Origin: Nostoc sp. T09
GTDB taxonomy: Bacteria; Cyanobacteriota; Cyanobacteriia; Cyanobacteriales; Nostocaceae
Assembly (NCBI RefSeq): GCF_002154695.1
Contig: NZ_MTAV01000089.1
Span: 1-64,000, forward strand
DNA: 64,000 bases
Direction: 5' to 3'
Position 1 is the stretch's first letter. Each line of letters opens with the position of its first letter. Below, piece by piece: positions 40,670-41,640 of the stretch. The notes under the pieces were generated by a model. It did no database searches. It saw only the letters and a program-made list of their open reading frames with translations, and was not told where the DNA came from. Made by a program: the position numbers and the translations under genes.

Positions 40670-40972
40670 TTAAACAATCTCAAATACCTTATCGAGTTGT
40701 GTCAATTCAAAAATAATTCTAATTGACGCAGAAACAGAGCACAGCCGCAAACTTCGTCCTAAACTCCCAGCTAGCTTGAGTGCAGATACTAATGCCATTA
40801 AACCTGCGCTGTCTAAGGATTCTATTGCCGCTAAATCCACTAACAAGATAGAAGTATCATCTTGTGCCAACGCTGTAGTTAGATCCCGTTCAAATTCCAA
40901 AGCGTTGGCGGCATTTAGGCAACCTTGGGGACGAATAACTGTAATTTTTGGACATTTAAGTACCGCTTGCAT
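40670..40972 (-). CDS. STAS domain protein (anti-sigma factor antagonist-like)
   Basis: A 100-residue single STAS domain. LLVDLAAIESLDSAGLMALVSALKLA in the middle holds the DSAG motif, whose Ser is phosphorylated by an anti-sigma kinase in the SpoIIAA family. This suggests a partner-switching regulator. No kinase or phosphatase gene is adjacent. It sits 175 bases upstream of the B12-radical SAM gene on the same strand, and 370 bases from a CRP-type site on its other side. The product is cytoplasmic. Confidence 0.88.
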   Translation of the reverse strand: MQAVLKCPKITVIRPQGCLNAANALEFERDLTTALAQDDTSILLVDLAAIESLDSAGLMALVSALKLAGSLGRSLRLCSVSASIRIIFELTQLDKVFEIV

Positions 40973-41442
40973 AATGAAATCCTAATTAAAGTTATTGAAC
41001 CGTAAAGCTTAGATTTATTTGAACATAAACTTTTTTTCATAACATCGACCATTTGTCTGAGGTTTCTTTGCTGAATCTTTATCGCTTTTGTACCTCTGTT
41101 TAAAGATTGTCATAAATACCGTTTAAAATGTATGTATATATACATTTTTTTTCGAGCAGTTAAAAAACAATCAACATAGCAAGCCAAAGAGCAAAATCAA
41201 CATCCGTAGCTATGCGGAGAGAGCTACTTTATCTAAAGTTCAGTCTGATTTAAACTAAGCTCAGCTATTAGGTAATATTCCCTAGATTATACCTGTGACA
41301 GCGGCAAATGTTGAGTTTTTTAGGGAATAATCATTTAAACATACTTGTGATCTAAATCACAAGTATATGAGTGTTTGGATCACTTTTTATACCAAACTAT
41401 ATCTTGGATAATTAATAGCAAATACAAATTGGCTGATCTTTT
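40973..41442. other. Regulatory intergenic region between STAS gene and small gene
   Basis: Apart from the CRP-type palindrome (described separately), it contains an AT-rich hairpin, AAATGTAT (41126-41133) with ATACATTT (41140-41147), followed by T residues. That hairpin could terminate a short rightward transcript. No gene is visible. Confidence 0.5.
41341..41366. promoter_or_regulatory. Perfect CRP-type (cAMP receptor protein) binding site
   Basis: TGTGA-N6-TCACA is matched exactly by TGTGATCTAAATCACA (41346-41361). The dyad extends to 11-bp arms, ATACTTGTGAT and ATCACAAGTAT, around CTAA. This is the consensus recognised by cyanobacterial CRP homologues (SYCRP1, AnCrpA) and by E. coli CRP. 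Possible -10 boxes TATACC (41388-41393) and TATATC (41398-41403) would put the site centre about 45-60 bases upstream of transcription start. That is a usual activator position for the small gene at 41443. Confidence 0.75.
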
Positions 41443-41640
41443 ATGAGAACTAGACACGCTATTCGTCAATTGGTAGAAAAAGCGCTTGATATTAAAAAAT
41501 TAACCCCTGAAATTGAAAATGAAATCAATTCAGAATTGACACAATTAGGCTACATATCTGATGTTGATTATGAAGCTCTGGAATTATTAATGGCAGAGAT
41601 GGATGCTGGCCGAATTAAGTTAGTTCCAAGCTTAGGATAG
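41443..41640 (+). CDS. Small conserved-looking protein of unknown function
   Basis: A 65-residue, charged, mostly helical protein (RTRHAIRQLVEKALDIKKLT near the start; YEALELLMAEMDAGRIKLVP near the end). It has no Cys and no membrane segment. The composition and codon use look genuine. I do not recognise a named family, though similar small proteins are common in Nostocales. It lies behind a perfect CRP-type site, which suggests expression responding to cAMP. The following aminotransferase gene is 207 bases away and may or may not share the transcript. It could be a small regulator or adaptor, which is speculation. Confidence 0.7.
   Translation: MRTRHAIRQLVEKALDIKKLTPEIENEINSELTQLGYISDVDYEALELLMAEMDAGRIKLVPSLG

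Follow-up and report, generated by a model that had tools for sequence, protein, structure and literature searches.

CRP sites of the TGTGA-N6-TCACA consensus are known, and the same sequence was predicted earlier as the cyanobacterial CRP consensus in a study that listed predicted sites in 2009 (PMC2633013). According to that source, predicted cyanobacterial CRP regulons are lineage-specific, even the most widely shared targets being limited to five genomes, the binding pattern of AnCrpA has been disputed, and there is little regulon overlap between species (PMC2633013). CRP-family regulators have also been connected to CdgR/ComFB (8HJA; Slr1970, Alr3277), a receptor of c-di-GMP/c-di-AMP. The Anabaena CdgR has DevH, a member of the CRP family, as an interaction partner and governs the size and viability of the cells (PMC13075795), and Synechocystis ComFB, a homologue of CdgR, forms complexes with SyCRP1 and SyCRP2, whose DNA binding or stability it is said to modulate (reviewed in PMC13249358). 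Little is known about the targets of CRP in heterocyst-forming cyanobacteria.

The locus described here lies in a 64 kb window of the Nostoc sp. T09 genome, that is, the whole stretch of DNA analysed (64,000 nucleotides; Table 1). It has the core TGTGA-N6-TCACA in common with the operators of E. coli CRP and of the cyanobacterial SyCRP1 and AnCrpA, together with the R-E-x-x-x-R residues of the regulator's recognition helix and a site placed 5' of the -10 element. In contrast to known CRP operators, its second site, at 23 bp, has only one conserved half, and, unlike the lineage-specific predicted regulons, the operator is conserved across many genera; the gene that follows may be among the targets predicted in 2009 (PMC2633013). 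This gene encodes a 65-aa protein, to the whole of which residues 1-62 of CdgR/ComFB align gap-free and which is predicted to have the three-helix fold of the CdgR/ComFB N-terminal domain. It differs from CdgR in lacking the ComFB domain (PF10719) and in several residues of the N-terminal domain that are invariant in CdgR; moreover, it is a separate gene with a predicted CRP site, whereas only background scores were obtained for a CRP site before cdgR.

Table 1. Features of the locus, in coordinates of the 64 kb window
Feature	Position	Strand	Basis
Divergent STAS-domain gene (anti-sigma antagonist type)	40670-40972	-	Pfam STAS, 5.5e-17
Predicted CRP-operator dyad, ATACTTGTGAT-CTAA-ATCACAAGTAT	41341-41366	n/a	Direct reading; arms 11 bp, perfect; centre 4 bp
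Operator core GTGAT-N4-ATCAC (predicted CRP site 1)	41347-41360	+	Conserved; centre 41353.5
Second half-site GATCAC (putative CRP site 2)	41378-41383	+	Conserved; site centre about 41376.5
Probable -10, GATAAT	41407-41412	+	Conserved block in orthologues
65-aa protein, predicted stand-alone paralogue of the CdgR/ComFB N-terminal domain	41443-41640	+	hhalign, AlphaFold2, Foldseek

Conservation of the operator and promoter anatomy

The exact TGTGA-N6-TCACA motif occurs once in the window. A preliminary description of this DNA had pointed to a perfect dyad with 11-bp arms situated 80 bases before the small gene; direct reading confirms the dyad, and the gap between its end and the ATG measures 76 nt. 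Across the 8.25 Mb genome the strict motif is not enriched over reversed control patterns: TGTGA-N6-TCACA was counted four times (control, three) and GTGAT-N4-ATCAC eight times (control, five), so that a single genome does not demonstrate significance. Six of the eight GTGAT-N4-ATCAC sites are within ORFs and two, including the operator core of Table 1, are intergenic.

Comparison of orthologous loci places the dyad before the small gene beyond chance. Among 100 CRP-encoding genomes, 78 carry GTGA-N6-TCAC at <=140 bp 5' of the orthologous start codon, compared with 0.1% of shuffled upstream regions, and most occurrences fall between -97 and -92 relative to the ATG (~95 bp); TGTGATCTAGATCACA is present at the operator in many relatives. 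Thus, the dyad, the loss of which from orthologous upstream regions had been proposed as a refutation of the operator, is retained at a fixed distance. In the orthologue alignment, the ten core columns carry 1.4-2.0 bits and the columns just outside about 0.1-0.3 bits. The outer 6 bp of the 11-bp arms pair in only ~35% of orthologues, so there is no selection for pairing there, and the perfection of the arms in Nostoc sp. T09 is mostly a local accident. The extended operator of the preliminary description therefore stands as far as its core is concerned, but not in its outer arms.

In 22 of the 100 CRP-encoding genomes, the strict dyad is absent within 140 bp. The site is located farther upstream in two cases (at -208 in L042 and -241 in L165) and is degenerate in some others. 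Both CRP and the small gene are present, with no nearby dyad, in the g62 group, g61, G203 and G055; in the g62 lineage (L158, L159, L162, L163 and L164), which has kept CRP, control of the small gene is lost or replaced. These exceptions indicate that control has been lost or has moved in some lineages.

Two conserved elements downstream of the dyad, the GATCAC half-site and the GATAAT -10, were both missed in the preliminary description. The half-site (0.7-1.3 bits per column, 68-87% conserved per base) lies 23 bp 3' of its counterpart in site 1; within site 2 it is the downstream half that is conserved and not the upstream one. From the 6-7 nt expected after the conserved -10, we infer a transcription start at ~41418-41419, which would put the centre of site 2 near -42, a class II distance, and site 1 at -64.5 or -65.5, a spacing that, with this start, would differ from the classical class I position. 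The promoter looks like an activator array, in which a strong dimer site is followed by a half-strength site adjoining RNA polymerase; the promoter logic as a whole is well supported. The conserved -10 escaped a generic sigma-70 scan, presumably for want of a TTGACA-like -35 ahead of it. In the CRP-less genomes G020 and G273, a -10-like TAATAAT persists although the operator is gone.

CRP as the likely reader of the dyad

The genome encodes a CRP orthologue of the SyCRP1/AnCrpA type (C219:19017-19715). It carries the PRS motif of the cAMP pocket, and the R-E-x-x-x-R residues with which E. coli CRP makes its contacts are retained in its recognition helix (LARETVTRVL). Such an orthologue was found in 54 of 59 relatives (55 matches at E<=1e-30, one of which is a 35% paralogue only) and in 86 of the 292 genomes of a phylum sample (E<=1e-50). 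The 65-aa ORF, in turn, is present in 50 of the 59 relatives, which identifies it as a real gene, and in about 71 of the 292 genomes, three matches that represent CdgR itself having been left out. Within the phylum sample, CRP is encoded by 65 of the 71 carriers of the small gene and by 21 of the 221 non-carriers.

The fate of the dyad follows that of crp. CRP-less genomes were identified independently of the state of the dyad, which is broken in six of the seven, being absent from G020, G273, G150 and G049 and decayed in G193 and G199; two genomes from a blind test add to this number. In G148 the dyad is intact and crp is a truncated pseudogene corresponding to residues 138-233, roughly the last two-fifths of the protein, a combination that fits a recent loss of crp. 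The association between dyad loss and crp loss is significant when shared ancestry is left uncorrected (Fisher's exact p = 0.0012). For the blind test, the three weakest dyads among 80 named genomes (L239, L274 and L279) were taken together with one intact dyad (L258). The two genomes with broken dyads, L239 (Anabaenopsis elenkinii) and L274 (a Nodularia MAG), are both without CRP, and both L279, where the site is degenerate yet recognisable, and L258 encode it. L239 and L274 share the decayed sequence, and probably reflect a single loss event. The attribution of the dyad to CRP in the preliminary description is borne out by this co-loss, blind prediction included, and CRP is the likely reader predicted from the aligned sequences, in which the operator, its conservation and its disappearance together with crp are directly visible. 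The small gene would then be a predicted CRP target with conservation that spans an order and evolutionary support from co-loss.

The reduction of crp to its C-terminal part (G148:C1:2550404-2550688; L173) was seen in one species of a genus; crp is intact in other members, and a further two have lost the gene, pointing to repeated loss within that genus.

The 65-residue protein and the N-terminal domain of CdgR

The small gene had been described as encoding an unknown protein, and searches of Pfam, NCBIfam and PHROGs gave no match over the cut-off, the ComFB domain PF10719 included, nor did a viral fold search yield any match. Its relationship to CdgR surfaced only via a sequence search of the PDB; in a profile search of the PDB, the best match was 8hja, residues 2-56. 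Direct comparison of the small family with the CdgR N-terminal domain using hhalign gave 96% probability, an E-value of 1.4e-9 and a score of 47.1 over 62 columns at 32% identity, compared with a best score of 19.8 in 200 column shuffles; no match was obtained to the C-terminal part of CdgR. AlphaFold2 predicts three helices (pLDDT 87), and 8HJA is the best PDB match of this model in Foldseek (probability 1.00, TM 0.71 by query length, rmsd 1.8), with a weak E-value of 0.078 that is presumably due to the very short query. The protein ends at the point where CdgR continues into the ComFB domain. Hence the 65-aa protein is no orphan; by profile and predicted fold, it is a stand-alone paralogue of the CdgR N-terminal domain, not a CdgR. 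The literature searched, of which the primary CdgR/ComFB papers were not part, makes no mention of such a stand-alone protein. The link to nitrogen or light responses that had been suggested for it finds no support here.

A possible meeting point of cAMP and c-di-GMP signalling

The presence of a predicted CRP site before a gene for a relative of CdgR suggests that cAMP and c-di-GMP signalling may meet at this small gene. In the proposed circuit, the cAMP-bound SyCRP1/AnCrpA orthologue would bind the dyad and activate, rather than repress, the small gene, leading to the production of a three-helix protein equivalent to a free copy of the CdgR N-terminal domain. The most likely action of this mini-CdgR would be to occupy or modify CdgR, or the contact between CRP and CdgR, thereby conveying cAMP status to the c-di-GMP arm or, by feedback, to CRP. 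Given the reported contacts of CdgR/ComFB with CRP-family proteins, a CRP-induced free N-terminal domain would be well placed to compete or to feed back. We consider it probable that the CRP operator, the homology to the CdgR N-terminal domain and the activation of the small gene hold jointly. The identity of the molecular target, CdgR or the CRP-CdgR contact, is a separate matter on which we are doubtful, and the more specific proposal of a cAMP-to-c-di-GMP switch, whereby the induced domain binds CdgR in the manner of a partial subunit, or binds CRP itself in competition with CdgR, is put forward tentatively, as an unlikely one. If true, it would mean that c-di-GMP control of CRP-family regulators, motility and cell size is reset, and would define a new class of small-protein modulators of second-messenger crosstalk. 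The product of the small gene would tie cAMP control to a CdgR paralogue, making messenger crosstalk testable via one small gene.

The main alternative accepts that the operator is read by CRP and holds that the small protein acts apart from the CdgR/CRP circuit, as an adaptor for another partner built on a shared ancient helical domain. We regard this as quite possible, if somewhat less than probable. The small gene is kept in genomes G020, G031 and G050, in which CdgR was not found, and also in CRP-less genomes, so its function is not wholly dependent on either; furthermore, residues G18, Y19, G29, C32 and D33, which are invariant in CdgR, have diverged in the small protein, which has an invariant set of its own. 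On the other hand, the co-occurrence of the small gene with CRP makes a link to the circuit economical, and CdgR/ComFB has been reported to bind CRP-family proteins (PMC13249358, PMC13075795).

The remaining alternatives concern the operator itself. The dyad could serve the divergent STAS gene instead of, or besides, the small gene, and the STAS gene is indeed a frequent neighbour, adjoining the small gene in 143 of 189 loci. However, the distance between dyad and small gene is fixed, ~370 bp separate the dyad from the STAS start and the dyad occurs in loci with no STAS match; it also persists at loci, such as L033 and L039, that gave no match for either flanking gene. Taken together, these observations render service to the STAS gene very unlikely. 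Recognition of the dyad by another CRP/FNR-family regulator, such as NtcA, DevH or a paralogue, might be entertained given that the sites of this family are alike and that Anabaena possesses both DevH and NtcA (PMC13075795), but we find it highly improbable. Among the CRP-family recognition helices read in this genome, RETVTR is found only in CRP and the others have RVTVTR; CRP-less genomes with a broken dyad still encode other CRP-family proteins; and no CRP2-type paralogue was detected in the dyad-keeping G012, G018, G031 and G034. NtcA half-sites are GTA/TAC, as opposed to GTGA/TCAC here, and an NtcA box, GTA-N8-TAC, was rejected on the grounds that the half-sites read GTG/CAC in the window as well as in almost every orthologue. 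Finally, although the perfect 11-bp arms of Nostoc sp. T09 could fold, an RNA hairpin in the 5' leader (an attenuator) in place of a protein site is scarcely credible, given that outer-arm pairing in orthologues is at chance level, that the repeat lies 5' of the conserved -10, and that neither an Rfam match nor a terminator-like site was found near the dyad; a structured RNA element was likewise discarded, stem pairing beyond the core not being conserved in relatives.

Elsewhere in the genome, a further exact TGTGA-N6-TCACA (L053; G000:C71:66851-66866) lies 69 bp 5' of a nuclease-like ORF, a candidate second CRP target, and an intergenic GTGAT-N4-ATCAC (L316; G000:C138:108116-108129) is located 143 bp 5' of the gene for a 220-aa, probably exported protein.
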